Below, in pieces: positions 6,661 to 41,766 of a DNA stretch of 42,763 nucleotides. Within the stretch, counting starts at the first letter, position 1, and each line of letters begins with the position of its first letter. The position numbers and the translations under genes are program-made. The stretch lies in IMG/VR virus record IMGVR_UViG_3300036944_000625, positions 1 through 42,763 of that record. One strand, written 5' to 3'. This DNA is from a virus. The notes under the pieces are model-generated. The model was given only the letters and a program-made list of their open reading frames with translations, ran no database searches and had not been told where the DNA came from.

Positions 6661-6692
6661 TTGACCGTATCGTCAATGAACCACTGTGTCAA
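6661..6692 (-). promoter_or_regulatory. Minus promoter with TTGAC-N6-GTCAA operator
   Basis: On the minus strand TTGACA (6692-6687), 17 bases, TACGGT (6669-6664). The palindrome TTGACCGTATCGTCAA (6661-6676) covers the -10, so a repressor bound there would block the promoter of the 6630 gene. The same palindrome occurs with one base changed at 35428-35443. Confidence 0.65.
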
Positions 6693-7089: not shown

Positions 7090-7274
7090 TCCTCAACACT
7101 CCCTCGTTTCGTGACGACATGCGCCGTCGCTGCGATCCGTTCCAACCGGGTCAAATCATCCCCTGATACGTTATTCGGATCGAGTGATGCAATAAAATTT
7201 GCATCGTAAAGGCTCAGCGGTGCGCCCGCACATGAGCATTTCTTAATTAGCCAATCGGCACGACTATTAGACAT
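7086..7274 (-). CDS. Hypothetical protein
   Basis: 62 residues, unrecognised, with a CxC pair (KKCSCAG) in the first 16 residues and an acidic, helical second half. The ATG at 7274 is immediately preceded by the operator-like palindrome at 7275-7290, whose CGAGGTG also serves as ribosome site; a bound protein or an RNA hairpin there could control translation or transcription. Overlaps the next start as ATGA. Confidence 0.55.
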   Translation of the reverse strand: MSNSRADWLIKKCSCAGAPLSLYDANFIASLDPNNVSGDDLTRLERIAATAHVVTKRGSVEE

Positions 7275-7290
7275 TTGACACCTCGGTCAA
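7275..7290. promoter_or_regulatory. TTGAC-N6-GTCAA operator-like palindrome
   Basis: TTGACACCTCGGTCAA, directly upstream of the ATG at 7274. Member of the family described in the findings. A minus-strand TTGACA (7325-7320) lies 30 bases upstream, but no good -10 is seen. Confidence 0.55.
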
Positions 7291-7334: not shown

Positions 7335-7634
7335 TTAAACCAGTTCGGCCAGGGCGGCGCGCTTCAATTCAATTGGCGCGGACTGTGCGACCGGATGCGC
7401 CAACACAAGCCCCTGTGCAACAATCGGTAGGATCGAATCGTTTACGGCGCGTTGCATCACAGCGGATAGTAACCCATTCATATCGCCAAAAATATAGCTG
7501 ACTAGGCCGTCGCTCAAACCGGCCTCGTGTGCTACTTTCTCGCGCGACATGTAGGAGAGTCCGACCGCCTGCGCAACTCGCAACGCAGCGGAAAGAATCT
7601 GTTCTGTGCGCTCGTCTCTGGTGTACCGTTCCAT
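7335..7634 (-). CDS. TetR-like HTH protein without effector domain
   Basis: 99 residues. The first 55 are a TetR N-terminal DNA-binding domain: RTEQILSAALRVAQAVGLSYMSREKVAHEAGLSDGLVSYIFGD, with the typical helix 1, the tripartite HTH and the pattern (S/L)-x-x-x-(Y)-x-(F). TetR proteins are normally about 200 residues with a C-terminal ligand and dimer domain; here only about 45 residues follow, so ligand binding is unlikely and dimerisation must be different. ATG has GAGG eight bases upstream. A near-match to the TTGAC-N6-GTCAA palindrome lies at 7653-7668, in front of the gene, as expected for autoregulation. I infer it is the phage regulator of those sites; this is not shown by the sequence. 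Confidence 0.75.
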   Translation of the reverse strand: MERYTRDERTEQILSAALRVAQAVGLSYMSREKVAHEAGLSDGLVSYIFGDMNGLLSAVMQRAVNDSILPIVAQGLVLAHPVAQSAPIELKRAALAELV

Positions 7635-7652
7635 TACTTCAACCTCACATGC

Positions 7653-7668
7653 TTGACAATTGCGTCAG
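7653..7668. promoter_or_regulatory. Near-match operator palindrome before the TetR-like gene
   Basis: TTGACAATTGCGTCAG matches TTGAC-N6-GTCAA at 9 of the 10 fixed positions. It lies in the 40-base gap between the methyltransferase stop and the TetR-like ATG at 7634. Confidence 0.45.
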
Positions 7669-11255: not shown

Positions 11256-11298
11256 TTGACAACCCCGCCAATCTGGCCCATTCTGACCGCGTTGTCAA
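11256..11298. promoter_or_regulatory. Symmetric divergent promoter
   Basis: Plus strand: TTGACA (11256-11261), 17 bases, CATTCT (11279-11284). Minus strand: TTGACA (11298-11293), 17 bases, CAGATT (11275-11270). The outer arms TTGACAAC (11256-11263) and GTTGTCAA (11291-11298) are perfect inverted repeats, so the -35 boxes lie at the two edges and the promoters overlap face to face. Drives the helicase operon leftward and the replication operon rightward. Confidence 0.7.
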
Positions 11299-16677: not shown

Positions 16678-16716
16678 TATAGCATCCTGGATATCAACAG
16701 GGTGGGAGAGGATAGA

Positions 16717-16825: not shown

Positions 16826-17149
16826 ATGACCCACACTCCCCGCCCCACGCTGCACCAGCTTGACGCACTGCGCCGCATTGCCGAAGGTCGGTCAATCGAT
16901 CAGGCTGCGTATGATATGGGAGTGTCTCGGTCGGCGGTGGAGAAACTGCTTGCCGAGGCTAAGTACCGTTTATCGGCCTGCACGCTGGCACATGCGATCA
17001 GTATTGCAATCCGGGCAGGATTGATCGGGCTTACGTTGTGGATGCAGGTTAGCCCCGAACACTACGACATGCGCCGCCCGAAGTCATCGCGTTATGAAAT
17101 GCGCTACCAAAGGAGCCGCAATAATCGAAACGACGGCAAACCCGCCTAG
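16826..17149 (+). CDS. LuxR-type (GerE) HTH protein
   Basis: 107 residues. Residues about 9-60 form a GerE helix-turn-helix: TLHQLDALRRIAEGRSIDQAA, then YDMGVSRSAVEKLLAEAKYRL, with the turn at MGVS and the recognition helix SAVEKLLAEA. The C-terminal part has one hydrophobic stretch (ISIAIRAGLIGLTLW) and a basic Arg-rich end. The start follows the stop of the small membrane gene by one base. It overlaps the convergent gene at 17084-17410 by 66 bases. A late-gene regulator is a reasonable guess for a lone HTH at the operon end. Confidence 0.7.
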   Translation: MTHTPRPTLHQLDALRRIAEGRSIDQAAYDMGVSRSAVEKLLAEAKYRLSACTLAHAISIAIRAGLIGLTLWMQVSPEHYDMRRPKSSRYEMRYQRSRNNRNDGKPA

Positions 17150-29914: not shown

Positions 29915-29982
29915 ATTATTGCACGATGTGGCGCGGCGGGCAAGCGATAGGGGTTGACGGCCCAGTCTGGTCGAATTACTAT
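29915..29982. promoter_or_regulatory. Divergent promoter cassette, copy 1
   Basis: Minus: TTGCCC (29943-29938), 17 bases, AATAAT (29920-29915), for the neck and tail genes. Plus: TTGACG (29954-29959), 17 bases, TACTAT (29977-29982), for the PP-loop gene. Bases 29915-29958 recur almost exactly at 32314-32360 (with a 3-base insertion) and in part at 40739-40782. The TTGAC-N6-GTCAA palindrome is broken in this copy. Confidence 0.7.
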
Positions 29983-30014
29983 GAGTCCGGATAGATTCGT
30001 CGGGGTGAATATAA

Positions 30015-30755
30015 ATGATAGCGGTGTGGTTCTCTCGCGGCGCGGCCAGTGCAGTCGCAGCAAAGTTAACCGTTGATATATTCGGCGCAAGCGAAGAAGT
30101 ACGAATCGTAACTAACCCTGTCATCGAGGAACCCGAAGATAATCTCAGGTTTCAAGATGATGTTGAAAAGTGGTTAGGTGTTCAGATTGAAACCGCCCTA
30201 AACCCGAAGTACCCGAACGCATCCGCTGTTGAAGTGTGGAACGATCGAAAATATATGGCGGGAATCGCGGGTGCGCCTTGCACGTCGGAACTGAAGAAAG
30301 TTGCGCGACAACATTGGGAAAACATCAATGCGCCAGATTGGCACGTTCTTGGGTTTACAGCCGAAGAGACTAAACGCCATAAACGTTTTACCATGGGAGA
30401 AAGAAGTAATGTACTCCCCATGCTGATATGGTGGGGATATACGAAACAAGATTGTCATAATATATTGAGAAATGCCGGAATCAAAGGCCCTAGTATCTAC
30501 CAGAAGGGTTTTCCAAATGCAAACTGCATAGGTTGCGTCAAAGCGCAATCTCCTACGTACTGGAATCTTGTCCGTAGAGAGTATCCGCAAATTTTTGATG
30601 CCCGCGCCGAACAATCCCGCCGAATCGGGTGTAAGCTCGTAAAGCACAAGGGCAAGCGCCTATATCTCGATGAACTTGATCCCAACGCGCGCGGCAGGTC
30701 ACTTAAAGGGCTAGATTTTGAATGCGGGTCGTTCTGTGAGGAGCGCCCTCGTTAA
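30015..30755 (+). CDS. PAPS-reductase/PP-loop family enzyme
   Basis: 246 residues with the N-type ATP-pyrophosphatase fold: PP-loop FSRGAASAVAAKL (residues 6-18) in place of SGGxDS, an acidic segment EEPEDNLRFQDDVEKWLG, then GAPCTSELKK (C89) and GFTAEETKRHKRF. C147, C171, C174, C237 and C241 could hold an iron-sulfur cluster or form a sulfur-carrying site, as in DndC/TtcA-like members. It belongs to a family seen in many phages, often called PAPS reductase; the real reaction is not known. It is a plus-strand insertion among minus structural genes, with its own promoter, and ends next to the DUF4054 gene stop. Confidence 0.8.
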   Translation: MIAVWFSRGAASAVAAKLTVDIFGASEEVRIVTNPVIEEPEDNLRFQDDVEKWLGVQIETALNPKYPNASAVEVWNDRKYMAGIAGAPCTSELKKVARQHWENINAPDWHVLGFTAEETKRHKRFTMGERSNVLPMLIWWGYTKQDCHNILRNAGIKGPSIYQKGFPNANCIGCVKAQSPTYWNLVRREYPQIFDARAEQSRRIGCKLVKHKGKRLYLDELDPNARGRSLKGLDFECGSFCEERPR

Positions 30756-31160
30756 TCACACCGCCCGCGCGCCCATCCCGACCCGCTTGCGCAACCGCAT
30801 AAATTGCTGACCAAAGCTGCTAGAAGCGAGCCAAGCGTCGCCCGCGTCAGTCTGTGCGGTCGGGGCAGCGTAGCTAATCGACTCGTCACCCACCGACTTG
30901 CTCGCCGTGATTAGCTGCGACGCTCCGACCGTGCTGGACTCGCCGTTCGGATACGTCACCGCGAGCCAATGCGCGGCATAGAGGAATTGCCCGCGCCGCT
31001 TGAAATTACTTGGTTCGTCGGCATAACCACCCCAACCGCAACCACCTGTTTCGGCGTCGCCTTCGTACAACGCCGCCTCAACCGTGGAGTCGCTCCAAAG
31101 CGAATCGTCCGCAAAAGCAGGATAAGCGAGACGGAATGCTGCGATGTTAATTTCTACCAT
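30756..31160 (-). CDS. Head completion protein (DUF4054)
   Basis: 134 residues: FRLAYPAFADDSLWSDSTVEAALYEGDAE at the start and helical GQFLYAAHWLAVTY, then SVGDESISYAAP and SSFGQQFMRLRKRV, the DUF4054 adaptor pattern. It would form the head-tail connector ring under the portal. Its stop adjoins the end of the PP-loop gene. Confidence 0.8.
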   Translation of the reverse strand: MVEINIAAFRLAYPAFADDSLWSDSTVEAALYEGDAETGGCGWGGYADEPSNFKRRGQFLYAAHWLAVTYPNGESSTVGASQLITASKSVGDESISYAAPTAQTDAGDAWLASSSFGQQFMRLRKRVGMGARAV

Positions 31161-31161
31161 G

Positions 31162-31947
31162 TCAAATCACCGGGAGGTCAATGGGGCCTTCATACCATTC
31201 GACAAGCGATGAAACACGCTGTGTCCCTGTCGTGCTGCGATTGGTCAGGCGGAACACATGGGCAGTGTTCGGTTTGAGGATTTGCGGAGCCTCGATGGCC
31301 TGGAACGCCACACCCGCCGACGTGACATTAGTTGAGCCGAATACGTATCGGGGCGCGCGAGTCAGTTCACCGATGAGCGAGATCGTCGCGCCAGAGTAGA
31401 ACACGCTTTGCGGTGTATACGGGTTGATATCGTTCACGTTATACGATTCAAGTGGCGTGCCACCCGTATAAGCCGAATCGCGGTAGATGAACGCATTAAT
31501 TCCGACACCATCGAAACACAGCGTGCGCGACTTGAGAACGACAGGATTCGCACCAGTGAGCATCACGGTGTCAAGCGACCCACTCGCCGCGAGCGTAACG
31601 TCTACGCTGATTTCGTGCGTACGACCGTCTTTGATTTTCGCTTCGTACCACGTTTGTGTGGTAAGGGCGCGCCGTCCATCGAACGCGCCGGATGGAAAAC
31701 CCGCCGCCTGGAACACCGGAGATTCTGTCACACTCACCACGGCGGCAAGATAGCACGACACGGTGAGAGTTGCCGAACCGTCACGGGTGATGTGGGTTTC
31801 GGTCGGATCAACGTAGGCCACCGCCTCGCCGTCCGATACCTCCACACGCGGTCCCGCGACAGACGTAATCATGATGGATCGGCCCGGAGCGATTCCCGTC
31901 GCCGCGTAAAGCTCTACGGACTGTCCCGCGCCGATCTGGATTTGCAT
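31162..31947 (-). CDS. Virion structural protein, beta-rich
   Basis: 261 residues, not assigned. All-beta composition with repeated short strands (QSVELYAATGIAPGRSIMIT, GEAVAYVDPTET), and a C-terminal immunoglobulin-like stretch (PHVFRLTNRSTTGTQ type). May be a capsid decoration or neck fibre protein. The start overlaps the stop of the next gene upstream. Confidence 0.55.
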   Translation of the reverse strand: MQIQIGAGQSVELYAATGIAPGRSIMITSVAGPRVEVSDGEAVAYVDPTETHITRDGSATLTVSCYLAAVVSVTESPVFQAAGFPSGAFDGRRALTTQTWYEAKIKDGRTHEISVDVTLAASGSLDTVMLTGANPVVLKSRTLCFDGVGINAFIYRDSAYTGGTPLESYNVNDINPYTPQSVFYSGATISLIGELTRAPRYVFGSTNVTSAGVAFQAIEAPQILKPNTAHVFRLTNRSTTGTQRVSSLVEWYEGPIDLPVI

Positions 31948-32273
31948 TATTCAGCCGCCTTGACTCTGGCAATCTCTTCCTGAATGCGCTTTTCGCCCCA
32001 CCGCTTGTCCACCTCGATACCAAGAGATTCGGCTTCGGCCCGGAGTTCAGCAAGCGGATCAACCGCAGCGAGCGACTCAGGGATGACAATTACATCACCC
32101 GATTCGATCAAGGCACGGATCATCTGGCCCTTGCAAAGCTCGTCCGGAACGGCAACGGCAGGACCAGCGGCCTTGAGCCGGAATTTCTCGCCGACTTCGA
32201 CCTTGCCTTTGACAATAGTGGACGGCTTCGAAACGGTGATAACCATCCGTCGCGAGTTGTTTTTCAGAAGCAT
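31947..32273 (-). CDS. Hypothetical structural-region protein
   Basis: 108 residues from ATG at 32273 (GGAG about ten bases upstream); the frame is open further but the extension crosses the promoter cassette and is not protein-like. An N-terminal beta segment (RRMVITVSKPSTIVKGKVEVGEKF) is followed by a helical acidic part (LAELRAEAESLGIEVDKRW). No family recognised; possibly a small head-tail protein with a HeH-like tail. Confidence 0.6.
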   Translation of the reverse strand: MLLKNNSRRMVITVSKPSTIVKGKVEVGEKFRLKAAGPAVAVPDELCKGQMIRALIESGDVIVIPESLAAVDPLAELRAEAESLGIEVDKRWGEKRIQEEIARVKAAE

Positions 32274-32313
32274 TGGAGAATGACTCCGCATTTGGGTTGG
32301 ATTGAGACGGGAT

Positions 32314-32384
32314 ATTATTGCACGATGTGGCGCGGCGGGCAAGGTGCGATAGGGGTTGACAGGTCGGTCAAGGGCGGTTAGGGT
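32314..32384. promoter_or_regulatory. Divergent promoter cassette, copy 2
   Basis: Minus: TTGCCC (32342-32337), 17 bases, AATAAT (32319-32314), for the 32273 operon. Plus: TTGACA (32356-32361), 17 bases, TAGGGT (32379-32384), for the 32426 gene. The plus -35 is the left half of the palindrome TTGACAGGTCGGTCAA (32356-32371). Confidence 0.75.
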
Positions 32385-32425
32385 TGGGACGTGATGAAAC
32401 AACACGGCAGAGGGAGTGTGGGAAG

Positions 32426-32713
32426 ATGACCAAGATTGTATGCAACGGTTGCTTTGGCGGGTTTGGGCTCAGCCCCGAAGCAATCACCAGATATTCCGTA
32501 CTATCTGGGAAGACGGAAGTATATGAATATGATATCGACCGGACCGACCCGCATCTCGTTCAGGTGGTAGAAGAAATGGGCGCTGCCGCAAACGGTAATT
32601 TTTCGCGCCTGTATGTCGTGGAACTGTCTCCTGGAACGCGATATCGAATCGACGAGTATGACGGGCAGGAGTCCGTAATGACAATTGATGATTACGACTG
32701 GTCCATCGCCTGA
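32426..32713 (+). CDS. Conserved phage protein (CFGGFGLS family)
   Basis: 95 residues beginning MTKIVCNGCFGGFGLSPEA, a start I recognise from a hypothetical family widespread in phages; the rest includes YEYDIDRTDPHLVQVVEEMG and LYVVELSPGTRYRIDEYDG. Function unknown. ATG at 32426 has GGGAGTGTGGG upstream. A one-gene plus-strand island between two minus structural genes, closed by the hairpin at 32721-32748. Confidence 0.8.
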   Translation: MTKIVCNGCFGGFGLSPEAITRYSVLSGKTEVYEYDIDRTDPHLVQVVEEMGAAANGNFSRLYVVELSPGTRYRIDEYDGQESVMTIDDYDWSIA

Positions 32714-32720
32714 ATCAACT

Positions 32721-32748
32721 CGGCCCACCTCTTGCCGGAGGTGGGCCG
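32721..32748. terminator. Convergent hairpin terminator
   Basis: CGGCCCACCTC (32721-32731) pairs with GAGGTGGGCCG (32738-32748) around a 6-base loop. It separates the plus-strand gene from the end of the major capsid gene. No T-run on either side, so strength is uncertain. Confidence 0.65.
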
Positions 32749-32777
32749 TACCGTTGCACTCTACTCAACCCGTCGTA

Positions 32778-33761
32778 TTACGGAGTATAGTCGTCGCGAT
32801 ACGCCGCCGAACCAGGATAGCGGAACTCGACACCGCCGAACTTGTACTCGGCCGGAACCATAACCCGCAAGCCGTCCGGCTGCGGTGCGACTTGCCGGTA
32901 GTTCATCGGCATGCGCATGGTCAGGTTGTCGTCGTTGAGTTCGTAGGCCATCATGCGACCCACGCCCGCCGCACCGGCAGTGTTGAGTTCGAAGTTGGCC
33001 CGAATGGTCAACGGCTGGCCGGTAAGCTGGGTGTAGAGGTTGTTCAGCTTGAAGAAATCCAGCACGGTAGTATCGGTGCCCGAGTCCATCCGCTGCGAGG
33101 AAATCTGCGCGAACTTTTCGGACGGGAGCAAGAACACGTTCGGGACGTGAACTTCGGCGGAATTCTGCCACACCTCAATCATGAGGCTATTCATGTCTTC
33201 CACGATTTCCGCACCTGTCGCGGTGGCCCAGTCCACGGTCGATTCATCAAGTGCCACGTTGGCGTTGTTGAACAGACCGGTGATCCCACGCGCCGAGTCG
33301 CCGAAGAACGCGACCTTCTGTGCGTGTTCCTGGAAGGCGCGGAAGTTCATCTTCGCCTTAGTCACGTCCAGCGGAATACGAAGCTGCTGCGACTTGCGCA
33401 ACTCGTCCAGGCTGTAAGAGAAGGACGTACCGCCGTAGAAAACCGGAATGATGCTCTTGGCAGCATTGATATCCGATTCCGGCAAGTCCTTGGCATTCGC
33501 ACCGATGAATTTCGCGACACCCACCGCGTCATACGAAATGTACTCGACCGAGTCGACCCACTCGGGATCGCTCTGGTCAACCGGCACAAAGTCCATGAAG
33601 ACGATGTTGCGATACTTGACCTCGTAGACTTTCGCCTCAAGAACGGCAAGCTGCGAAGTGTAGAACGCAAGGCCGTCGTCTACCGTGGCAACAGGAGCGT
33701 CCATGTCGTAGGTATACGACTGGCCCGTAGCCGAATCATTAACAGTGACTGGATGGACCAT
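32778..33761 (-). CDS. Major capsid protein (DUF2184)
   Basis: 327 residues, HK97 fold of the DUF2184 type: YEVKYRNIVFMDFVPVDQSD, SYDAVGVAKFIGANAKDLPES, SKSIIP-like GGTSFSYSLDELRKSQQL, then TGLFNNANVAL, FLLPSEKFAQISSQRM and the beta-rich RMPMNYRQVAPQ end. GGGGG precedes the ATG at 33761. It is the expected highly expressed virion protein; the promoter is at 35387-35409 ahead of the three-gene unit. Confidence 0.9.
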   Translation of the reverse strand: MVHPVTVNDSATGQSYTYDMDAPVATVDDGLAFYTSQLAVLEAKVYEVKYRNIVFMDFVPVDQSDPEWVDSVEYISYDAVGVAKFIGANAKDLPESDINAAKSIIPVFYGGTSFSYSLDELRKSQQLRIPLDVTKAKMNFRAFQEHAQKVAFFGDSARGITGLFNNANVALDESTVDWATATGAEIVEDMNSLMIEVWQNSAEVHVPNVFLLPSEKFAQISSQRMDSGTDTTVLDFFKLNNLYTQLTGQPLTIRANFELNTAGAAGVGRMMAYELNDDNLTMRMPMNYRQVAPQPDGLRVMVPAEYKFGGVEFRYPGSAAYRDDYTP

Positions 33762-33764
33762 CGT

Positions 33765-34250
33765 TTAACCCCCAATGCCCAGAGAAACCTTGACCAAATC
33801 GCCAGCGTCGCCGCCGGTCAAGAACTTAGCACCCGCAACGAGTACGCCGAGAGTCGCGCCAGTGCCGACCACACCGGAAAAGTCACCCGCGCCGGTTGCA
33901 CCGACACGAAGATAAACCGGGGCGTCCTTGGCAACAGTGTCAAGCACAGTGACCCAAATGACACCGTGAGTAACAACGGTGAAATCCCGATCAACCGGAG
34001 CGCCGAACGTATCGCCATCGGCATACGCGCGGTTAAGTTCGCGCATCGCGACGCCGATGAACTGCGCGGCAGTGCTGGCCGGAACCGGAAGGATCGCACC
34101 CTCTTCGCCCGAGGTGACGACACCCTTACCGTAAGGGATCGTAACGGTGTCAGCGTTCAGCTTGGACACCGAGTTAAAAATCTGCTCATCGGCAAGCATG
34201 CCCGCATAAGCAACAGCATGTTCAATGCTATACGTGGTCTGTACGGCCAT
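33765..34250 (-). CDS. Capsid decoration / structural cement protein
   Basis: 161 residues: YSIEHAVAYAGMLADEQ, GVVTSGEEGAILPVPASTAAQFIGV and GVIWVTVLDTVAKDAPVYLRVG, a beta-sandwich layout of gp24/DUF2190-like cement proteins. Located between protease and capsid genes, as usual. Starts at TAATG overlap with the previous gene. Confidence 0.75.
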   Translation of the reverse strand: MAVQTTYSIEHAVAYAGMLADEQIFNSVSKLNADTVTIPYGKGVVTSGEEGAILPVPASTAAQFIGVAMRELNRAYADGDTFGAPVDRDFTVVTHGVIWVTVLDTVAKDAPVYLRVGATGAGDFSGVVGTGATLGVLVAGAKFLTGGDAGDLVKVSLGIGG

Positions 34251-35359
34251 TACTTGCCCTCCGCAGTCTTACGCCACGCCGAACCCATATCGGCGTTGTA
34301 CTTGGCCCGCGCATCACCGATCTTGACCGGAGTCTTAGCGGCATCGGCGGCGAGTCGCTTGAGAGAGTCGGTAGACTCTTCTTCTTTCTTCTCTTCCTCG
34401 TCAGGCAGCATATCCCAAGCGGCCTGAACATAGACCGCAGACTTATCGGCCCAATCAATACCCGGGCAAGCCTTGACGAGCGCAGCGCGCTGGATCGCGG
34501 ACACGTCAACCGAGTCGCACGTGAAGTCCGCGCCGACCTTCTTACGGGCGGACGCAAGCGTATCAAGAACGCCCTTCACCCGTTCCATGATGGCCGAGTC
34601 GGACGACTTCTTAAGCGCCTCATCCTTGGACTGCGCTTCCATCTCCGCCTTAGCCTTCTCTTCCTCGCTCATCTCTTCCGCGTCCTTAACGCGCTTCAAG
34701 AGACGGTCGAACGCATCGCCAATGAGCGCGGCGGTAGCCTCATCCGCAAGCTCGACGGTGCGCCCCGTATCGAGAGTGATTTTTACCGGCATAGGTGCAA
34801 CCTCCGCTTTGCCGTCGAACAAACGAGCGAGAGCACCAGCCCTTGCCCTATCCACCAACGCAACATGATTGACTTTGATGTTGCGTTGAATGAATCGCAC
34901 ACCCTGCGCTTTTAGATCGGCAGGGACATTTTCATCGTCGTAAACCGCGCTGTAACCTGCGCTCAATTGAACCTTACCCGAATCCACCGCTTCGATACCG
35001 GCCTTGTCCTTAATGACCAAATCCGCAACGACGTAATCGCCGTCTCGACTCGCCGAACCCCGGACCGTCCCCACCGACACGCTACGATATGTGTCAGGCG
35101 TAACAAAACCGGACGGGTGTTCAATCGTTACATCCGCACCATTGTACGAGTCGAGGGACGCTTGATCGAATACGGACTCTTCCGGGCGGTACACCTTGAT
35201 AATATCGTTCGGCGACGTGTCAGTAACGCCGAGTTCCGACGCAAGGTAATCCTGAATGCCGACACGAGCGACGCGACCCGGAACGCGCAAAAAACCTTCG
35301 TCGGTAATTTCGCGCTTGCTAATTTCATAAGAAATACGGTCGCAGACTGTGACGAGCAT
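34250..35359 (-). CDS. Prohead protease fused to scaffold (DUF2213)
   Basis: 369 residues. The N-terminal 180 residues are a DUF2213 protease: GFLRVPGRVARVG, IEHPSGFVTPD (His), LSAGYSA (Ser) and NHVALVDRARAG. The next 120 residues are acidic, Lys/Glu-rich coiled coil (KDAEEMSEEEKAKAEMEAQ), the scaffold, followed by EEEKKEEEST. The protease cleaves the scaffold and may trim capsid proteins. Start has GAGG eight bases upstream. Confidence 0.88.
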   Translation of the reverse strand: MLVTVCDRISYEISKREITDEGFLRVPGRVARVGIQDYLASELGVTDTSPNDIIKVYRPEESVFDQASLDSYNGADVTIEHPSGFVTPDTYRSVSVGTVRGSASRDGDYVVADLVIKDKAGIEAVDSGKVQLSAGYSAVYDDENVPADLKAQGVRFIQRNIKVNHVALVDRARAGALARLFDGKAEVAPMPVKITLDTGRTVELADEATAALIGDAFDRLLKRVKDAEEMSEEEKAKAEMEAQSKDEALKKSSDSAIMERVKGVLDTLASARKKVGADFTCDSVDVSAIQRAALVKACPGIDWADKSAVYVQAAWDMLPDEEEKKEEESTDSLKRLAADAAKTPVKIGDARAKYNADMGSAWRKTAEGK

Positions 35360-35386
35360 TAGTCAACCTCAAAATGTGACGACGCA

Positions 35387-35443
35387 AGTATATTACGCAT
35401 TGACACACGTTGCAAGCGTGATAAGGTTTGACCGTAACGTCAA
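35387..35443. promoter_or_regulatory. Nested divergent promoters with operator
   Basis: Minus: TTGCAA (35415-35410), 17 bases, TATACT (35392-35387), for the capsid operon. Plus: TTGACA (35400-35405), 16 bases, TAAGGT (35422-35427), for the 35462 island. The palindrome TTGACCGTAACGTCAA (35428-35443) sits at the plus transcription start, one base different from the one at 6661. Confidence 0.65.
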
Positions 35444-35461
35444 AAAACGGAGGATTGAAAG

Positions 35462-35863
35462 ATGTTCAAAGTTGGTGATCGGGTGCGCGGTAAGGGTGTG
35501 GTAGACGGTGTTGACATTACCGGAATGCTCGGGAGGATTGAGGATGTCTCAAAGCGGTCTAACAAATGCTTTGCGGTGGGGTTCGACACTGAAGATGAAG
35601 ACTTTCACGATTGTGATGGGAGGTGTGCTAAAAATAGGGGCTACCATGTGACCCCGAACAATCTCGAACTCGTCACGGATGAACCGATCCGAGTCGAAAC
35701 CGATACAGCCTCCGATCCTGAACCGATCCCCGCAAGCGTGGCCCCATCCGACGAAACGCTCCGTCTGATCCGGCACACCTTGCTTGCCATCACCGCGTCA
35801 ACCGATCCGGTTGCGGCCCGCCTCGCCGACCAGACTCTTAGCGTCATGGAGTCCGGCGAATGA
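35462..35863 (+). CDS. Hypothetical protein with SH3-like start
   Basis: 133 residues. The start MFKVGDRVRGKGVVDG, then GMLGRIEDVSK, looks like a small SH3-like beta barrel, followed by a Pro/Glu linker and a helical C-terminus (LRLIRHTLLAITA). GGAGG precedes the ATG at 35462. First gene of the third plus-strand island. Its stop overlaps the next ATG. Confidence 0.6.
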   Translation: MFKVGDRVRGKGVVDGVDITGMLGRIEDVSKRSNKCFAVGFDTEDEDFHDCDGRCAKNRGYHVTPNNLELVTDEPIRVETDTASDPEPIPASVAPSDETLRLIRHTLLAITASTDPVAARLADQTLSVMESGE

Positions 35864-36525
35864 TCCTCAAACCGAACCAAGCGATTGACGCGAGCAAGCT
35901 GACATTCCACCAGTTTGTTAAGTGTTGCGAAGATACCACCGCGGACGGCGCGGAAGACATGGGTTGCGTTGCGCCACACAATGCGGATGGACCGGTATGG
36001 TTGTGGCGGAACGTCATTGGCGCACTTCTCATGACCAGAACGAACCTATATAACGACACAGAAATTGTCGAATGGCCGATGATGCGCGACGAAGCGATTC
36101 GGTTCGTTCGGCGACAGTTACGGGATGGTAAGACATGGGGCGAGTTTTCCGCACCGTCTGGGTGGTGGTGGTACACCTGCAATAGTATCGTTGACTTGGT
36201 TCAGTCAGAAAGTCTTGACTCGGTGAGACTCGATGACGGGGAGGTGCAACCGCGCCGCGTCTACATCTCCGGCCCGATGACCGGATTGCCCGACTACAAC
36301 CACGCTGCGTTCTGTGCCGCTGCTGAGGCGTTGCGCGACGAAGGACACGTTGTGGTCAACCCAGCAATGTTGCCGAACGGGTTGACCCAATTTGCATATA
36401 TGGATATCGCGCTTGCAATGCTCCGAGCGTGCGATACGATCAAGCTCTTGTCGGGTTATCAAGATTCGCCCGGCGCGTTGGCCGAATTGGCCCTGGCGAA
36501 AAAACTGAAAATGGAGGTAATGTAA
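35860..36525 (+). CDS. DUF4406 domain fused to unknown N-terminal domain
   Basis: 221 residues. Residues about 131-221 are a DUF4406 domain, Rossmann-like and related to nucleoside deoxyribosyltransferases: RRVYISGPMTGLPDYN, HVVVNPAMLPNG and DSPGALAELALAKKL. The first 130 residues (HQFVKCCEDTTADGAEDMG, WLWRNVIGALLM, then a Trp-rich SGWWWYTCN) are unrecognised and form an unusual fusion. It may metabolise nucleotides or nucleotide-sugars. ATG overlaps the preceding stop (ATGA). Confidence 0.75.
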   Translation: MILKPNQAIDASKLTFHQFVKCCEDTTADGAEDMGCVAPHNADGPVWLWRNVIGALLMTRTNLYNDTEIVEWPMMRDEAIRFVRRQLRDGKTWGEFSAPSGWWWYTCNSIVDLVQSESLDSVRLDDGEVQPRRVYISGPMTGLPDYNHAAFCAAAEALRDEGHVVVNPAMLPNGLTQFAYMDIALAMLRACDTIKLLSGYQDSPGALAELALAKKLKMEVM

Positions 36526-36527
36526 AA

Positions 36528-36707
36528 ATGGAAATGCATTGGCCACAGATTACGATGATCGTGTTGCTCAGTCTCGGTGCGGGGATGCACATTATGAAGC
36601 ACGGTGAACCACGCACCGAGAAATACAACATGTTCTATCAGTTCGTGGGTATCGGAATTACCGTCACGCTGCTCTACTTCGGTGGCTTCTTTGGGAAGGT
36701 AATGTAA
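36528..36707 (+). CDS. Small two-helix membrane protein
   Basis: 59 residues starting MEMHWPQITMIVLLSLGAG, helices PQITMIVLLSLGAGMHI and FVGIGITVTLLYFGGFFG. GGAGG ends the previous gene just upstream. Function unknown. Confidence 0.6.
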   Translation: MEMHWPQITMIVLLSLGAGMHIMKHGEPRTEKYNMFYQFVGIGITVTLLYFGGFFGKVM

Positions 36708-36709
36708 AA

Positions 36710-36895
36710 ATGACTCACTCGTATCAAGTTTACTTGCGGTTCAATCCGTCGTTCGCGGTTCACAATGTTGCGGAAATCATTTGGGAAGGCGATATCGTTG
36801 AATTCCGCGACGAGAACGACAACCCGATCGAAATTGTCCGTCTCGGTTTCGGTGATCGCATTACGCGGGTTGACAACGATGTCAATGCGGGGTAG
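36710..36895 (+). CDS. Hypothetical protein
   Basis: 61 residues, unrecognised: SYQVYLRFNPSFAVHNVAE, acidic strands and IEIVRLGFGDRITRV. GGAAGGTAATGTAAAA precedes the ATG at 36710, identical in part to the leader before 36528. Confidence 0.55.
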   Translation: MTHSYQVYLRFNPSFAVHNVAEIIWEGDIVEFRDENDNPIEIVRLGFGDRITRVDNDVNAG

Positions 36896-36919
36896 GTTGT
36901 AGGGGTTGGCGTAATAATA

Positions 36920-37176
36920 CCGTGTCGAGCGTTTCAAGGACGGACACATGTTGTGTACGGTTAGTCACTCAGAAACGAACAACTCGGCACGGTCGCCAAA
37001 TCGTAGAGTATCCGGTGAAAGCGGGGCATGACACCGGGAGCCGCCTAATCGCGGTACGGCTTAGCCGCTAAGTTTAACCCGCCCAGCGTGAGTAGAGTAG
37101 TGGTCAACGGTACGTGTCACTGCATTTCATGCGAAGCCCGACACGCCAAGTCGCGGGATGTTAGCAGCCGTTGACC
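36920..37176 (+). ncRNA. Possible structured non-coding RNA upstream of tRNAs
   Basis: About 257 bases without a gene but with a chain of perfect or near-perfect inverted repeats. Hairpin A: CCGTGTCGAG (36920-36929) with CTCGGCACGG (36983-36992, one G-U), continuing as CGTTTC (36930-36935) with GAAACG (36972-36977), and an inner ACACA/TGTGT (36944-36956). Hairpin B: CCGGTG (37012-37017) with CACCGG (37032-37037). Hairpin C: AGCCG (37039-37043) with CGGCT (37057-37061), or the alternatives GCGG/CCGC and CTTAG/CTAAG. Hairpin D: GGTCAACGG (37102-37110) with CCGTTGACC (37168-37176), enclosing CGTGTC/GACACG (37113-37118, 37140-37145) and a GCAT/ATGC tip. Directly followed by tRNA genes, so it may be on the same transcript. 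Not a recognised class. Confidence 0.55.
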
Positions 37177-37183
37177 ATCCTTT

Positions 37184-37259
37184 GCCGGTTTAGCTCAGAC
37201 GGTAGAGCTACGGTCCTGTAAACCGTGGGTCGGCGGTTCGATCCCGTCAACCGGCACCA
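37184..37259 (+). tRNA. tRNA-Thr(TGT)
   Basis: 76 bases. Acceptor GCCGGTT pairs with AACCGGC, D-stem GCTC/GAGC, anticodon stem ACGGT/ACCGT around loop CCTGTAA with anticodon TGT, T-stem GGCGG/CCGTC around TTCGATC, discriminator A and encoded CCA. Reads the ACA threonine codon. Confidence 0.92.
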
Positions 37260-37263
37260 ATGT

Positions 37264-37338
37264 AGACCTGTAGCTTAATGATAAAGCTGGCTGCTCATAA
37301 CAGCACAGATGTAGGTTCAAATCCTGCCGGGTCTACCA
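37264..37338 (+). tRNA. tRNA with CAT anticodon (Met or Ile)
   Basis: 75 bases. Acceptor AGACCTG with CGGGTCT (one G-U), D-stem GCTT/AAGC, anticodon arm GGCTG/CAGCA with loop CTCATAA (outer pair is a G-A mismatch), T-stem GTAGG/CCTGC around TTCAAAT, then ACCA. Anticodon CAT at 37296-37298 could be elongator Met, or Ile if lysidine is made at C34. The CCA ends one base before the stop of the convergent head morphogenesis gene. Confidence 0.85.
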
Positions 37339-38217
37339 CTATTTCTCACCCTCGACCTCGCGCCGAGTCAGTGGCACAGCTACGCACCGACAATTTATTT
37401 CGCCTGACCCCGGCATTATGGGATTTCCTGTAACGCCTTTAGGCGGATCGTCATACCGATACACCCCCTTACCGTGTCCTACGTCTGCCTTGGCGATCTG
37501 TTCGTGCCTATCTCGGACCCGTTCGTCCTTTGACGTGACCCACCGGAAATACTCAAACCCTGCCGCTTGCTGGCGCTTCTGTGCCAAATCGGAATTGATT
37601 TTTGCCGTCTGGTCCCGCGCGATCAATTTCGCCCGGTTCTCCGCCACGCCAAACTGTTGCACCAGGGCCTTTTGGATCGCAGCGGGACGACGGCCCGCCC
37701 GGACATTCGCCATGATGATTGATTGAATCTGCGTAAGATACTGTTCCGGGATGGATCGGATTAGGCGCACGTTATCCGCCGCGCTCAATGACAGGTAATC
37801 CGATATGACCGGCGAATCGCCTAGGATATCAATCCCGAATCGCTTCATGTCTTTGCGAAACCGATCCGCGTTAACTTGATCTGCCGACTTCACGAACTGT
37901 TGCGCGATCCCTTCGGCCCAGGCGCGAAACTCGGGCGACTCCCAACGCGTCACAACTGCCCGGAGTGTTGCAAGTAACGTGTCCGTCCAGGCGTCTCGCG
38001 TGGGGATAGCCGAGTCGGCTTGATACTGCGGCGCAATGTCGCGCAATAGCGGCATGACGTACTGATTGATATCGGCTTGCACGCTGCGAACCAATCGGCG
38101 GAGCGTGGCGCGATAGTCAACCTCGACCGAGCGCGAAGGTTCAATGCCTTTCGGCTTGCGCGTACCGGCTTGCTCGATCTGCTTTTGCGTCCATTCTTGA
38201 AGATAATTCTCAGCCAT
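37339..38217 (-). CDS. Head morphogenesis protein (Mu F / SPP1 gp7-like)
   Basis: 292 residues: a helical N-terminus and the C-terminal pattern ARDQTAKINSDLAQKRQQAAG, EYFRWVTSKDERVRDRHEQ, then GEINCRCVAVPL, the Phage_Mu_F signature. Needed with the portal for prohead assembly. ATG at 38217 starts MAENYLQEW; a longer start at 38235 is less likely. Its stop directly abuts the tRNA 3' end. Confidence 0.85.
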   Translation of the reverse strand: MAENYLQEWTQKQIEQAGTRKPKGIEPSRSVEVDYRATLRRLVRSVQADINQYVMPLLRDIAPQYQADSAIPTRDAWTDTLLATLRAVVTRWESPEFRAWAEGIAQQFVKSADQVNADRFRKDMKRFGIDILGDSPVISDYLSLSAADNVRLIRSIPEQYLTQIQSIIMANVRAGRRPAAIQKALVQQFGVAENRAKLIARDQTAKINSDLAQKRQQAAGFEYFRWVTSKDERVRDRHEQIAKADVGHGKGVYRYDDPPKGVTGNPIMPGSGEINCRCVAVPLTRREVEGEK

Positions 38218-38244
38218 GCGCCGAGTATATCGCAACGGAAGGGG

Positions 38245-38272
38245 TTGACATAGTGGTCAATTGGGGTAGAGT
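38245..38272 (+). promoter_or_regulatory. Plus promoter with operator
   Basis: TTGACA (38245-38250), 16 bases, TAGAGT (38267-38272), driving the island at 38311. TTGACATAGTGGTCAA (38245-38260) covers the -35. A TATACT (38229-38224, minus) may serve the head morphogenesis gene. Confidence 0.65.
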
Positions 38273-38310
38273 GGGGGAGTGATTAGACATGATTAGGGAG
38301 TGGTCAAGAA

Positions 38311-38523
38311 ATGTTGCGATGGAAAAAACTTCGAGTCGGCCCGTTCGATGTTCCGATGTGCGTATTGCGAAAAGACGGGGAAGAAATTGCATTCGCCCAA
38401 CAAATCAGAAAGGGCGATAACTGGTTTTGGTACGGGATGGGTTACAACACGGCGCACCGTCCCGATACCCTCGAAAACGTAAAAGCCGAAGCAATCCGAA
38501 TCGCGAAGGAGCGTTCCGAATGA
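38311..38523 (+). CDS. Hypothetical protein
   Basis: 70 residues: MLRWKKLRVGPFDVPMCVL, then GDNWFWYGMGYNTAHRP and a helical C-terminus. Unrecognised. GGGAG lies ten bases before the ATG. First of five coupled genes. Confidence 0.6.
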   Translation: MLRWKKLRVGPFDVPMCVLRKDGEEIAFAQQIRKGDNWFWYGMGYNTAHRPDTLENVKAEAIRIAKERSE

Positions 38524-38639
38524 CCCACACTCTCGAACAACTGCAACGCGACGTTGAACTCGCCCAGGAACAAGCCGCACGCGATGCAATCGCTGAGATC
38601 GGCGAGGATGATCTGAATTTTGTGAGGGGTTGGCGATGA
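38520..38639 (+). CDS. Tiny acidic coiled protein
   Basis: 39 residues, MTHTLEQLQRDVELAQEQAA onward, helical and acidic. Overlaps both neighbours as ATGA, so probably real. Unknown function. Confidence 0.6.
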   Translation: MTHTLEQLQRDVELAQEQAARDAIAEIGEDDLNFVRGWR

Positions 38640-38881
38640 CTGACCTCAAACCGTGCCCGTTTTGCGGTGCACCCGCTAAGATGATGAGCATCCCCGGTTC
38701 GTACGGCTACTATCCCGGCAAGCGATTAGTCGGATGTACCGCGTGCGATGCGAGGTCCATAGAATTTGCCGACGAAGAATATGTACCGGGAGATGGTATG
38801 ATATACACGATAGAGGAAGCGGAAAGAGCGGCAATTGAGTGGTGGAATCGTCGCATTAACCAAACCGAGGGTGAGTCATGA
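38636..38881 (+). CDS. Lar-like zinc protein (restriction alleviation family)
   Basis: 81 residues. LKPCPFCGAPAKM, then LVGCTACDARS and the C-terminal AAIEWWNRRI are the Lar_restr_allev pattern (two CxxC pairs and the WNRR end). Lar of the Rac prophage relieves type I restriction; most phage homologues are untested. ATGA overlap with the preceding gene. Confidence 0.8.
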   Translation: MTDLKPCPFCGAPAKMMSIPGSYGYYPGKRLVGCTACDARSIEFADEEYVPGDGMIYTIEEAERAAIEWWNRRINQTEGES

Positions 38882-39120
38882 AACAGGAAGGTCCAGGGTA
38901 TACAAATTGGATCGCTGACGATGCGGGCGATATCTGCAGCAATTATCGCGGCGATATAGCACGGTGTAGCGTCGAAGTATGGCACCATGATTTCCCATTG
39001 TCGGCGAGTCAAGTCGTAATGCTCATGAACTACGCATTTAAACAAGGGCGCATTGAACAGCGTGAACTGTTGCGCGACGCACTCGGGATTAAGCGCGACG
39101 CGGGGAGCAATGAGCTATGA
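38878..39120 (+). CDS. Hypothetical protein
   Basis: 80 residues: a polar start with two cysteines (DICSNY, ARCSVEVW) and a helical end (MLMNYAFKQGRIEQREL). Unrecognised. Overlaps the Lar-like gene by four bases. Confidence 0.55.
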   Translation: MKQEGPGYTNWIADDAGDICSNYRGDIARCSVEVWHHDFPLSASQVVMLMNYAFKQGRIEQRELLRDALGIKRDAGSNEL

Positions 39121-39296
39121 TCGCCCCACTCTCCCGCATCCAAGCGACCGGCGACGGATGGTATCAATTGCTCGTCTTGTCGCTACATGTCCCGGGAACA
39201 TGGTTCGCCCATGGCGAATACCGCAACCGATGTGATGCGGAACGCGCGCGACGGAACCTTACGCTTCCACCTAGGGCAATCCTGTGGTGGGCGTAG
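39117..39296 (+). CDS. Small Trp-rich protein
   Basis: 59 residues, starting MIAPLSRIQATGDGWYQLL and ending LPPRAILWWA. ATG overlaps the previous stop as ATGA. Its last 26 bases overlap the end of the portal gene on the other strand. Unknown function. Confidence 0.5.
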   Translation: MIAPLSRIQATGDGWYQLLVLSLHVPGTWFAHGEYRNRCDAERARRNLTLPPRAILWWA

Positions 39297-40581
39297 GTGT
39301 AGTCAGGTCAACAGGCGGAATTGCATCATCCGGTTCCGCCTGTTCCTCCGCTTCGAGTTCATCAATCTGTTCGACAGTGATTTGATACATTTCCGCAGAC
39401 TGCAAATTCCGCATCACCTGCGAGCGTTCCACAACTCCCGACTCTAGGTACACCGCATCACGTTGCGCCCGGAGCAATTCGGCCTGTGCTTCCTCAACCG
39501 CGTTAGGTTGCTCAAGCGGATTCCACTCGTAATCAAAATCATCCGGCCACTGCCCCGTCGCACTGCGCACCATCACCGCGTCAATGCACCGCAACGGACG
39601 TTCCATCTTTGCCTGTGCGCCCGCTAGGTCATCGTAATAGTTCCGCATGTCCCCTTCACCCGTGGCGTTAAGGCCCTTCGCAGACGTGCCGAACAGCTTT
39701 GTAACGGGCATGCGCGCCGCACCGCTGATCCAGGTGATGAACTGCTCGATGATCGGTGCGACACCGGACAAGTTTAACGTCTGGCGCGTAAGTGTTTCGT
39801 CGCCATCAAGCAGCGCCATATGCAGCGAGGATTTCATGAGACTAAACAAGTCGTAACGCTTAATAATCGCGTCGTCTTGATCGCTACTCAGCGCATCGGC
39901 CAATCCCGTGCGCGTAATCGTGTCAATGTTCGCCTCTTGCATCAGGTTAGCGATACCGTCCTTCGCCGCGACCATATCGCTAATATCATCGATACACTTG
40001 CGCAAGACCGAGTCGCCCCATCCCTGCGTCTGTGCAAGAATGCGGCGCGGGAGTCGTTCGCCCATGAAATAGGCAAAATGCGACCAATGAATTTGCTGCT
40101 GTCCGCCGTTGACCATATGGAACTGCGCGCGAAGGTAATTTTCGCTCAACACATCCCATGTGTTCAACGTGAGCGCCGGGATTTCCCAACGATCAAACAC
40201 CATAAGCCGCTTGAGCGAGCCTTTACGAATTCGGTTCAAGTCAAGCGGCTTGGACAAATCCTGATCGGTCAACATGAGGATAGCTGAACCACCGAACAAC
40301 CGCGCCCAACTGATCGCCTCGGACACATTATCCTGTAAACACAGAGACGACTCGGTTGCTTCGATTTCTTCCGACCAGGACGATTTGATCCGCCGCCACT
40401 CGCGCGTCATGTCCTGCGCAGGAACGTCCACGATGGCGCGTGCGATCCAATTGGACTGATAACAAGCGTCAAGCTCTGCCCAATTGTTGAGCATAGCATA
40501 TGCCCAACGGTTATACGTGCGCTTGTCTTTGCGCGTGCCGAGTCCCGTAACAGCGTTTTCCAGTCCGTCGAAGTTAACGCG
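39271..40581 (-). CDS. Portal protein (DUF1073)
   Basis: 436 residues from ATG at 40581 (GAGG nine bases upstream; the frame extends further but that part is coupled to the small gene). The DUF1073 pattern is clear: YQSNWIARAIVDVPAQDMTREWRRI, ARLFGGSAILML, GERLPRRILAQTQGWG, LLDGDETLTRQTLN and ARMPVTKLFGTSAKGLNATGEGDMRNYYD. Forms the DNA entry ring and binds terminase. No anti-CBASS Acb1 domain is fused. Confidence 0.9.
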   Translation of the reverse strand, partial: RVNFDGLENAVTGLGTRKDKRTYNRWAYAMLNNWAELDACYQSNWIARAIVDVPAQDMTREWRRIKSSWSEEIEATESSLCLQDNVSEAISWARLFGGSAILMLTDQDLSKPLDLNRIRKGSLKRLMVFDRWEIPALTLNTWDVLSENYLRAQFHMVNGGQQQIHWSHFAYFMGERLPRRILAQTQGWGDSVLRKCIDDISDMVAAKDGIANLMQEANIDTITRTGLADALSSDQDDAIIKRYDLFSLMKSSLHMALLDGDETLTRQTLNLSGVAPIIEQFITWISGAARMPVTKLFGTSAKGLNATGEGDMRNYYDDLAGAQAKMERPLRCIDAVMVRSATGQWPDDFDYEWNPLEQPNAVEEAQAELLRAQRDAVYLESGVVERSQVMRNLQSAEMYQITVEQIDELEAEEQAEPDDAIPPVDLTTPTPTTGLP

Positions 40582-40714
40582 CATGATTTTTCGCCTCGGC
40601 AAGTGCAATAGCTTGAGCCTGTTCTCGACTTGTAACAGCATGGCCCGAACTGGACTTAAGTGTACCAGCTTCAAACTCGGCCATTACTTTACGGATTTTC
40701 TCTTCTTCGGACAT
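40574..40714 (-). CDS. Small DUF6496-like protein
   Basis: 46 residues matching the short helical DUF6496 pattern: KIRKVMAEFEAGTLKSSSG, then AVTSREQAQAIALAEAK. GGAG lies eight bases before the ATG. Overlaps the portal start by 8 bases. Function unknown; first gene behind the promoter cassette at 40739-40806. Confidence 0.75.
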   Translation of the reverse strand: MSEEEKIRKVMAEFEAGTLKSSSGHAVTSREQAQAIALAEAKNHAR

Positions 40715-40738
40715 GCGCACGACTCCATGAGACGGAAC

Positions 40739-40806
40739 ATTATTACACGGTTGGGCGAGTGGGGCAAGCGATAGGGGTTGACAGAGCGGTCAATGCGGGA
40801 TAGGGT
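40739..40806. promoter_or_regulatory. Divergent promoter cassette, copy 3
   Basis: Minus: TTGCCC (40767-40762), 17 bases, AATAAT (40744-40739), for the portal genes. Plus: TTGACA (40778-40783), 17 bases, TAGGGT (40801-40806), for the 40841 island. TTGACAGAGCGGTCAA (40778-40793) covers the plus -35. Confidence 0.75.
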
Positions 40807-40840: not shown

Positions 40841-41155
40841 ATGATGCGCATGTCAAATGAGGAAGTAATGCGAGAACTAAGAAGCGACAGCCCCCTCAAT
40901 CGCGCGCGTGCCGCGTTCTCGTCCGCATGCGGACGCATCGAACAGGAAGGACAACAGCGCAACCCTATCGGTCCTATCGCGATTCGGGCGATGGAATTTG
41001 AAGCGGTTTGCAAAATCATTGAAGCCGCTGGCTACGAGGTGCCGCCCAAAAGGTCAGCGGAAGGAGAAGAAACAATTACCCGCGCCGACGTCATGGACCA
41101 GACGGCCGAGGCGCGGCGGCAGATGATGATGGAGGCCAACAATGGCCGTATTTGA
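40841..41155 (+). CDS. Hypothetical protein
   Basis: 104 residues: MRMSNEEVMRELRSDSP, then an acidic helical run and AMEFEAVCKIIEAAGYEVPPK. GGGAG stands just before the ATG; a second ATG follows one codon later. Unrecognised. A conserved helical phage protein by look only. Confidence 0.55.
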   Translation: MMRMSNEEVMRELRSDSPLNRARAAFSSACGRIEQEGQQRNPIGPIAIRAMEFEAVCKIIEAAGYEVPPKRSAEGEETITRADVMDQTAEARRQMMMEANNGRI

Positions 41156-41330
41156 AGTGCACATGTACATGTACATGTGGGTACGCCGTGACACTATCGT
41201 TTACGTCGATGCAAAGGACAAGCGCGAAGCAAAAACAAAATCCCTCGTGTCGCAAGATGATTGCTGGGAGTTCTCCGGAGACGCGAAGCCTATTGTTGTC
41301 CAAAAAATCATCGATGTTCCCAATGGCTGA
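41142..41330 (+). CDS. Hypothetical protein with palindromic start
   Basis: 62 residues starting MAVFEVHMYMYMWVRRDTI; bases 41160-41179 are a perfect palindrome made of three ACATGT units, giving the HMYMYM repeat. Beta-rich, likely small folded domain. GGAGG upstream. Overlaps both neighbours. Confidence 0.55.
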   Translation: MAVFEVHMYMYMWVRRDTIVYVDAKDKREAKTKSLVSQDDCWEFSGDAKPIVVQKIIDVPNG

Positions 41331-41766
41331 CCTTGCAACCCTGATCGACCTCCGCGACCGGCTGGCAAACGCAGAGGATAAGCAATTCGAGAGGATTGGC
41401 GTCGAATTGCTTACCACCATCGGCGGATGGGAACAAAAAGACGGAGAAGGGGCCAGCGAGCTTCGGGACGAACGCGGAATGCTACAGACGCGACTGCTTT
41501 ACCCGCTTCCGCCCCATGGCTTCCCGTCACCGCGATATAATCTGAACCCGACGTTGTCTATCGGCGCCGCCGTGGCGCTGTGTGAGCGAGTGCTGCCAGG
41601 GTGGGTGTGGGGCATATCTCAAAACTGCTGCGCGCTGCTGTATCGGCGCGCGGAGAACGCGGACGGGTACAATCTGAAGGTTTCTCCGCCGAAAGGTGCG
41701 ACCCCACCCCTCGCCCTGTGCTGCGCCATTATCGACGCCCTCATCGCGAAGGAGCAGGCCGACTAA
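41323..41766 (+). CDS. Phage ABA-sandwich domain protein
   Basis: 147 residues from ATG at 41323. LATLIDLRDRLANAE, then PRYNLNPTLSIGAAVALCERVLPGWVWGISQNCCALLY and ATPPLALCCAIIDALIAK follow the ABA-sandwich pattern known from many phage genomes, with unknown function. Overlaps the previous gene by eight bases; its stop shares CTAA with the terminase stop. Confidence 0.75.
   Translation: MADLATLIDLRDRLANAEDKQFERIGVELLTTIGGWEQKDGEGASELRDERGMLQTRLLYPLPPHGFPSPRYNLNPTLSIGAAVALCERVLPGWVWGISQNCCALLYRRAENADGYNLKVSPPKGATPPLALCCAIIDALIAKEQAD

Follow-up and report, generated by a model that had tools for sequence, protein, structure and literature searches.

The window analysed here, the 42,763 nucleotides of the IMG/VR virus record IMGVR_UViG_3300036944_000625, carries a 156-bp direct terminal repeat (155/156 identical), indicating that the record is a complete, circularly closing genome of ~42.6 kb. 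Judged from its sequence, the phage is a dwarf myovirus of the phiPLPE/CP-T1/Jedunavirus group. Its DUF2184-type major capsid protein (MCP) displays 55–58% identity to those of Klebsiella and Vibrio phages, the portal shows at most 66% identity among the matches listed, and the replication-type genes encode a helicase, an exonuclease, an annealing protein, a DNA polymerase and a primase. Comparison of the window with phages at the DNA level returned no match, as did protein searches of viral contigs with the MCP alone and with the TetR-type protein described below alone; IMG/VR relatives were gathered through an MCP alignment, comprising 80 loci around homologous capsid genes. The structural genes lie on the minus strand between about position 18 kb and the terminase and are broken by five plus-strand islands (Table 1). 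In an Rfam scan of the window two tRNAs were the only entries above the gathering score.

Table 1. Coordinates of the islands, promoters, predicted operators and associated genes in the window; exact and mismatched copies refer to the palindrome TTGAC-N6-GTCAA.
Feature	Position	Strand	Description
Predicted operator	6661..6676		Exact; upstream of 6352-6630 (-)
Predicted operator	7275..7290		Exact; abuts start of 7086-7274 (-)
Mini TetR-type HTH protein (tetR)	7335..7634	-	99 aa; PHROG 8723; proposed regulator
Predicted operator	7653..7668		1 mismatch; 18 bp upstream of tetR start codon
Early divergent gap			Between helicase (9567-11243, -) and replication-gene operon (11320-, +)
Two predicted operators	11256..11298		Starts 11256 and 11283; 1 mismatch each; in early divergent gap
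Predicted operator and promoter	16657..16685	+	Exact palindrome 16657-16672 as -35 of TTGACC-17-TAGCAT
Small genes			Downstream of the 16657..16685 promoter; include HTH protein 16826-17149
Cassette 1	29915..29982		Minus TTGCCC-17-AATAAT (29943-29915); plus TTGACG-17-TACTAT (29954-29982)
Cassette 1 palindrome	at 29954		Degenerate, TTGACggcccaGTCtg; 2 mismatches
Island, adaptor-neck junction	30015..30755	+	PAPS-reductase-like protein, PHROG 424 moron class; weak SspD match
Cassette 2	32314..32384		Minus AATAAT-17-TTGCCC (32314-32342); plus TTGACA-17-TAGGGT; exact palindrome 32356-32371
Island, junction of MCP and next gene	32426..32713	+	One gene, PHROG 16527, unknown function
Divergent promoters	35387..35443		Plus TTGACA-16-TAAGGT at 35400-35427
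Palindrome	35428-35443		Exact; directly after the -10 of the 35400-35427 promoter, at the expected start-site region
Island, head morphogenesis-protease junction	35462..36895	+	Four genes, one DUF4406/nucleoside 2-deoxyribosyltransferase-like
Promoter	36870..36898	+	TTGACA-17-TAGGTT; -35 within exact palindrome 36870-36885
tRNA-Thr and tRNA-Met	37184-37338		Downstream of the palindrome promoter 36870..36898
Promoter	38245..38272	+	TTGACA-16-TAGAGT; exact palindrome 38245-38260
Island, portal-head morphogenesis junction	38311..39296	+	Five small genes
Lar-like restriction alleviation protein	38636-38881	+	In island 38311..39296
Cassette 3	40739..40806		Minus TTGCCC-17-AATAAT (40739-40767); plus TTGACA-17-TAGGGT; exact palindrome 40778-40793
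Island, terminase-portal junction	40841..41766	+	Three small genes, no family found

Across the family the islands stand at a restricted set of junctions, which among the head genes are terminase-portal, portal-head morphogenesis, head morphogenesis-protease and after the capsid gene, and among the neck and tail genes lie before the neck gene and around the tail tube, chaperone and tape measure genes. Among the 34 genomes or loci compared, no island separated the protease, decoration and capsid genes. A first-pass annotation had proposed that a promoter faces a plus-strand accessory island at each junction, which we found to be so, and had held that islands fixed in all relatives would refute its reading. 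Islands are instead gained and lost at fixed junctions, also between phages 138 and CP-T1, and some relatives (L022, L026, L068, L078, L094 and L099) are island-free. The islands thus consist of accessory genes, variably present among relatives, between conserved virion genes, and we regard them as moron-like genes, presumably expressed early. Similar to lambdoid morons, such genes lie between virion genes, have a predicted promoter of their own and, at many convergent ends, a GC-rich hairpin; unlike lambdoid morons, the islands are antisense, multi-gene and under one shared predicted operator. GC-rich hairpins occur in 33 of 80 convergent but 1 of 122 divergent gaps, and just one of the window islands shows a clear one. 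In the window, an 11-bp GC-rich hairpin stands between the island gene at the MCP junction and the 3' end of the MCP gene.

The same annotation had described near-identical divergent promoters, in which a minus-strand AATAAT-17-TTGCCC element stands back to back with a plus-strand promoter, at three positions (cassettes 1 to 3), and both layout and coordinates proved correct. The minus elements bear an extended TGn, and with up to two mismatches no further example was evident elsewhere on the minus strand of the window. Cassettes 1 and 2 are identical over 30/30 bp (29915-29944 and 32314-32343), the longest exact repeat of the window once the terminal repeat is set aside, while cassette 3 has diverged, being 80% alike to cassette 1 over 55 bp. 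There are three exact occurrences of GCGATAGGGGTTGAC in the window, and the 30-nt cassette consensus gave three matches versus 0.00 expected in shuffles. In the cassette region a generic sigma-70 scan found 12 promoters versus 11.2 expected, and a terminator scan alone was likewise not above chance; the signal therefore resides in the repeated sequence and not in promoter likeness. A search of viral contigs with the cassette pattern found none, and the 30-bp identity is local to the window genome. In many relatives, moreover, the element described next stands no more than 12 bp from the start of the structural gene, leaving no room for a downstream structural promoter, and thus the TTGCCC-17-AATAAT promoters of the window are not established as a family trait. 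In the window the island promoters have poor -10 boxes (TAGGGT, 3/6) and could accordingly be weak or dependent on help.

What the first-pass annotation missed is that the plus-strand -35 at the islands is one arm of a palindrome, TTGAC-N6-GTCAA. The window contains eight exact copies versus 0.033 expected, making it the most enriched among palindromes with 5-bp half-sites and gaps of 0–12, no other exceeding three copies. Six of the eight are noncoding, although noncoding DNA makes up 10% of the genome (p = 2.5e-5), and at four promoters of the island region (32356, 36870, 38245 and 40778) the -35 is one arm of an exact copy. A single genome carries many copies over several of its promoters, including those at islands, in the early region and upstream of tetR itself, the last of which predicts that tetR is autoregulated.

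The palindrome is a property of the family, with the consensus TTGACG-N4-CGTCAA. In JD001, KsaM-C1, AAM22 and 138 this palindrome, or TGACG-N4-CGTCA, ranks near the top for enrichment, and it is mainly noncoding in these phages and in CP-T1 and MSW-3. In 24 related genomes and loci the palindrome was present in 87 of the 116 divergent gaps between an antisense island and a structural gene. TTGAC sites in these gaps numbered 91 with at most one mismatch, of which 38 were exact, while the next best half-site permutation gave six one-mismatch and no exact matches; exact matches were likewise confined to a gap of N6 (38), with zero at every other spacing. Site density fell from 2.8 per kb in divergent gaps to 0.71 in same-strand gaps, 0.14 in convergent gaps and 0.09 in coding DNA. 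Sixty IMG/VR loci were at least 11 kb long. Two or more noncoding sites were found in 24 of the 27 that bear islands versus none of the 33 that are island-free, for which the Fisher value of 8e-14 is indicative, since the sequences are related.

When the 116 divergent-gap sites were aligned, a -10 element appeared on the island side (T.65, A.78 and T.83 at +23, +24 and +28), placing it at spacer 17 from a -35 formed by the near arm of the palindrome, while no -10 was visible toward the structural genes. It should be emphasized that selecting sites fixes the columns of the palindrome but not the -10, and hence this one-sided promoter is an independent result. The palindrome stands a median of 50 bp from the island start codon. 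Conversely, of the 148 noncoding TTGAC-(17-19)-TAnnnT matches in island phages that encode the TetR-type protein, 116 possess the second arm GTCA, which a plain -35 would not require.

The candidate regulator is the product of tetR, a 99-residue protein with a TetR_N helix-turn-helix (HTH; Pfam PF00440, 1.3e-6, 28.5 bits versus a cut-off of 24), whose best PDB profile match is EilR (5vl9, 8e-11). It shares with TetR, QacR, RutR and EilR this HTH and a palindrome, here a predicted operator, upstream of its own gene. Unlike full TetR-family proteins of about 190–220 residues, the phage protein lacks the C-terminal ligand-binding/dimerisation domain, PDB matches cover only residues about 3–84, and its predicted sites lie at dispersed phage promoters rather than at one adjacent operon. 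Because the C-terminal domain is absent we class it as a TetR-type HTH protein, hereafter mini-TetR, and not as a full TetR-family member. An AF2 model (pLDDT 76) was weakest at the recognition helix, Foldseek searches with it returned nothing significant, and the alignment of relatives was too variable for back-translation. A putative tetR was noted previously in phiPLPE, CP-T1 and 138 by Comeau et al. 2012 (PMC3391216), who suggested that bacterial regulators are co-opted by phages; the gene is the same, while no operator, target or link to islands was found in that paper. Our literature search, conducted largely outside subscription journals, found the gene but not the operator or regulon.

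Gene and palindrome travel together. Every operator-bearing complete phage inspected encodes a TetR_N HTH protein of 92–104 residues, the length range of the aligned relatives, and among IMG/VR contigs at least 30 kb long sites were found in 18 of 19 TetR-positive versus 1 of 18 TetR-negative contigs (p = 2e-8), the exception being a 32-kb fragment. Relatives that lack TetR are mostly island-free. A site lies 34–64 bp upstream in 24 of 30 tetR genes, a set in which some entries are near-duplicates (138 and the two CP-T1 copies, for example). The association is in part one of shared descent, further early genes co-occur with tetR in many operator-bearing phages, and TetR-like proteins are found without enriched noncoding sites in SppYZU01, AeroV_348, 97.13 and Psp6. 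The three other HTH proteins of the window were rejected as the regulator, being present in 0, 1 and 0 of 29 relatives, in searches of which two of the three had no positive control. In phiPLPE a divergent TetR and the islands are kept while the replication genes are unrelated, which separates the operator from the replication module. Here a variant site of the TTGACG-N4-CGGCAA type occurs at four sites including islands, the -10 again at spacer 17, and one further copy lies about 15–30 bp upstream of tetR, a pattern that suggests that regulator protein and site co-vary.

We consider it likely that mini-TetR shuts off the early promoters of the phage, including those of the islands, through TTGAC-N6-GTCAA. 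In this model, built on sequence comparison, the palindrome would be the binding site of mini-TetR, and at the islands one arm would double as the -35 of a host sigma-70 promoter, placing the centre of the palindrome near -27.5. Once the phage DNA has been injected, host RNA polymerase would fire the island, early replication and tetR promoters together; mini-TetR would then accumulate and occupy the palindromes, blocking the -35 or the start region and turning off the islands, the early operons and its own gene. Such shut-off would spare late transcription of the structural operon from collision with opposing island transcription, and the operator-promoter would persist at fixed junctions while cargo turns over. 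We infer binding by mini-TetR, repression rather than activation, the early timing and the purpose of avoiding conflict. Counting against shut-off are the degenerate operator of cassette 1, the poor -10 boxes of the window islands, the TetR-like proteins found without enriched noncoding sites, the missing C-terminal domain and the weakly modelled recognition helix. As with P1 C1 and the stoperators of mycobacteriophage L5 Gp71, one phage DNA-binding protein would serve many scattered operator copies, several of which overlap promoters and one of which lies at its own gene; in contrast with those systems, the sites here are symmetric 16-bp palindromes paired with a TetR-type HTH, they stand at antisense islands in the structural operon, and no lysogeny genes were seen.

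It could be argued that the same protein and operator act not in lytic timing but as a repressor of lysogeny or superinfection immunity, which silences every early promoter, as P1 C1 or mycobacteriophage L5 Gp71 does, to hold a dormant or pseudolysogenic state. Operators dispersed over early promoters and islands, with sites upstream of tetR, would suit such a role. Jedunaviruses, however, are usually described as virulent, and no integrase, partition or cI-type gene was present among the window genes scanned. The CP-T1 record gives its source as 'induced lysogen', and Comeau et al. suggested either a new form of pseudolysogeny or a deletion for a phage genome without any known lysogeny gene set, although 138 is listed as lytic (PMC3391216). 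The recorded origin of CP-T1 from an induced lysogen, together with the lack of standard lysogeny genes, makes a lysogeny-like role the main rival, albeit an unlikely one.

Activation of the promoters through the palindrome, by mini-TetR or another factor, appears rather improbable. In its favour, the -10 boxes of the window are weak, and some TetR-family proteins are activators according to one account (PMC6873888); the sites upstream of tetR are compatible with an activator too. Activator sites, however, normally lie at -41.5 or farther upstream at a fixed position, while the palindrome overlaps the -35 and spacer or, at 35428, follows the -10, a variability typical of repressors and not of activators. 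The sister vibriophages 1.199.A and 49E33-1 provide an instructive comparison. Their islands are similar, yet they contain neither TetR nor TTGAC-N6-GTCAA sites; instead the CRP consensus TGTGA-N6-TCACA stands at the corresponding island promoters, with 10 exact copies in 1.199.A and 7 in 49E33-1 versus 0.06 expected, 9 and 6 of them noncoding. Visual inspection of antisense gaps placed the start of the -10 21 nt beyond these CRP-like sites, which centres them at -41.5, the predicted geometry of a class II activator. Such geometry at the islands of the sister phages speaks for activation; the sites of the TetR phages, with their centre at -27.5 and covering the -35 and spacer, have the predicted geometry of a repressor.

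The first-pass annotation had likened the cassettes to a moron delivery unit, in which promoter plus cargo is duplicated or inserted. The moron-like nature of the islands and their turnover stand, and the 30 bp common to cassettes 1 and 2, with a diverged third, fit such a unit, but its duplication or insertion was not borne out: site flanks are no more similar within genomes than between them (6.48 versus 6.47). In 138 and CP-T1, which are 95% identical, the cargo of several islands has been gained, lost or swapped while the operator-promoter end is kept, and the extra gene of 138 after the MCP lacks an operator at up to one mismatch. Together these data indicate that cargo moves under promoters that stay in place, and a mobile cassette is improbable; the element shared family-wide is the predicted operator. 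The RutR consensus is TTGACCAnnTGGTCAA, with the same outer half-sites as the phage palindrome. It is nevertheless very improbable that a host regulator such as TetR-family RutR, which targets a ~16-bp palindrome (PMC10891134), binds the sites and that the phage protein is unrelated to them, given that they follow the phage tetR across phages of diverse hosts and stand upstream of it, that G and C rather than CA/TG flank the N4, and that protein and site appear to co-vary in phiPLPE.

Taking repression by mini-TetR as the preferred reading, there is perhaps an even chance that these phages share a plug-in system, in which fixed junctions of the late operon carry antisense early operator-promoters with free cargo under one minimal TetR-type repressor, and which a sister lineage rewired to CRP-like class II sites, so that the architecture endures while both regulator and cargo can be replaced. 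One phage repressor probably controls island genes that are otherwise unrelated and rapidly changing. Dozens of unlinked, mostly unknown small genes would thereby be joined in a single predicted regulon, for which both a regulator and a testable 16-bp site can be named. The phages concerned include Klebsiella Jedunaviruses, which are common, as well as the cholera phages CP-T1 and 138. The presence of the operator may serve as a marker for early accessory genes, candidates for anti-defence or takeover functions such as the Lar-like protein, and the model bears on how opposing early genes could fit inside a late operon without transcription collisions.

In the vibriophages 1.199.A (L016) and 49E33-1 (L019) the antisense island promoters carry a CRP-like palindrome, TGTGA-N6-TCACA, of which there are 10 and 7 exact copies, respectively, against 0.06 expected. 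In the antisense gaps inspected the -10 element comes 21 nt after this site, which is centred at -41.5 (class II geometry), and these sequences suggest that the islands would be under host CRP control. Antisense islands with neither TetR-type nor CRP-like sites are present at the loci L025 and L028, where a third control system may operate. The relatives L007, L008, L011 and L014 encode a related mini-TetR, the small TetR-type protein proposed to bind the island operator (TTGAC-N6-GTCAA), yet their structural operon is contiguous; no enriched noncoding operator was found in these phages despite the protein, which may use other sites there.

Features discussed, with coordinates
Feature	Coordinates	Strand	Remark
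CRP-like palindrome (examples)	L016:5261, 20952, 25022		Antisense island promoters
PAPS-reductase-like gene	window 30015-30755; L010:8466-9449; L008:8634-9710
Antisense gene after capsid gene, phage 138 (L010)	L010:26665-27369		Missing from CP-T1
Promoter-like elements, TTGCCC-17-AATAAT with TGn	window 29915-29943, 32314-32342, 40739-40767	minus	Three near-identical, structural strand

The TTGCCC-17-AATAAT elements, unmatched elsewhere on the minus strand of the window at up to two mismatches, could represent a class of late promoters in this phage. A segment of ~290 nt with no called gene (36896-37183) separates tRNA-Thr/tRNA-Met from an operator-promoter at 36870; it matched no Rfam family and is possibly a leader that is structured or processed. 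The window has a direct terminal repeat (1-156 and 42608-42763, identity 155/156) and the genome is therefore complete, although the terminase large gene is apparently split across its ends.

The antisense gene of 138 has no operator at one mismatch or fewer. It may encode a free-standing homing endonuclease, since KsaM-C1, an operator-bearing relative, contains an annotated HNH endonuclease at the same junction. The PAPS-reductase-like gene is located in an island in the window but in the early operon of 138 and AeroV_348 (L008), and thus genes have possibly been exchanged between islands and the early region.
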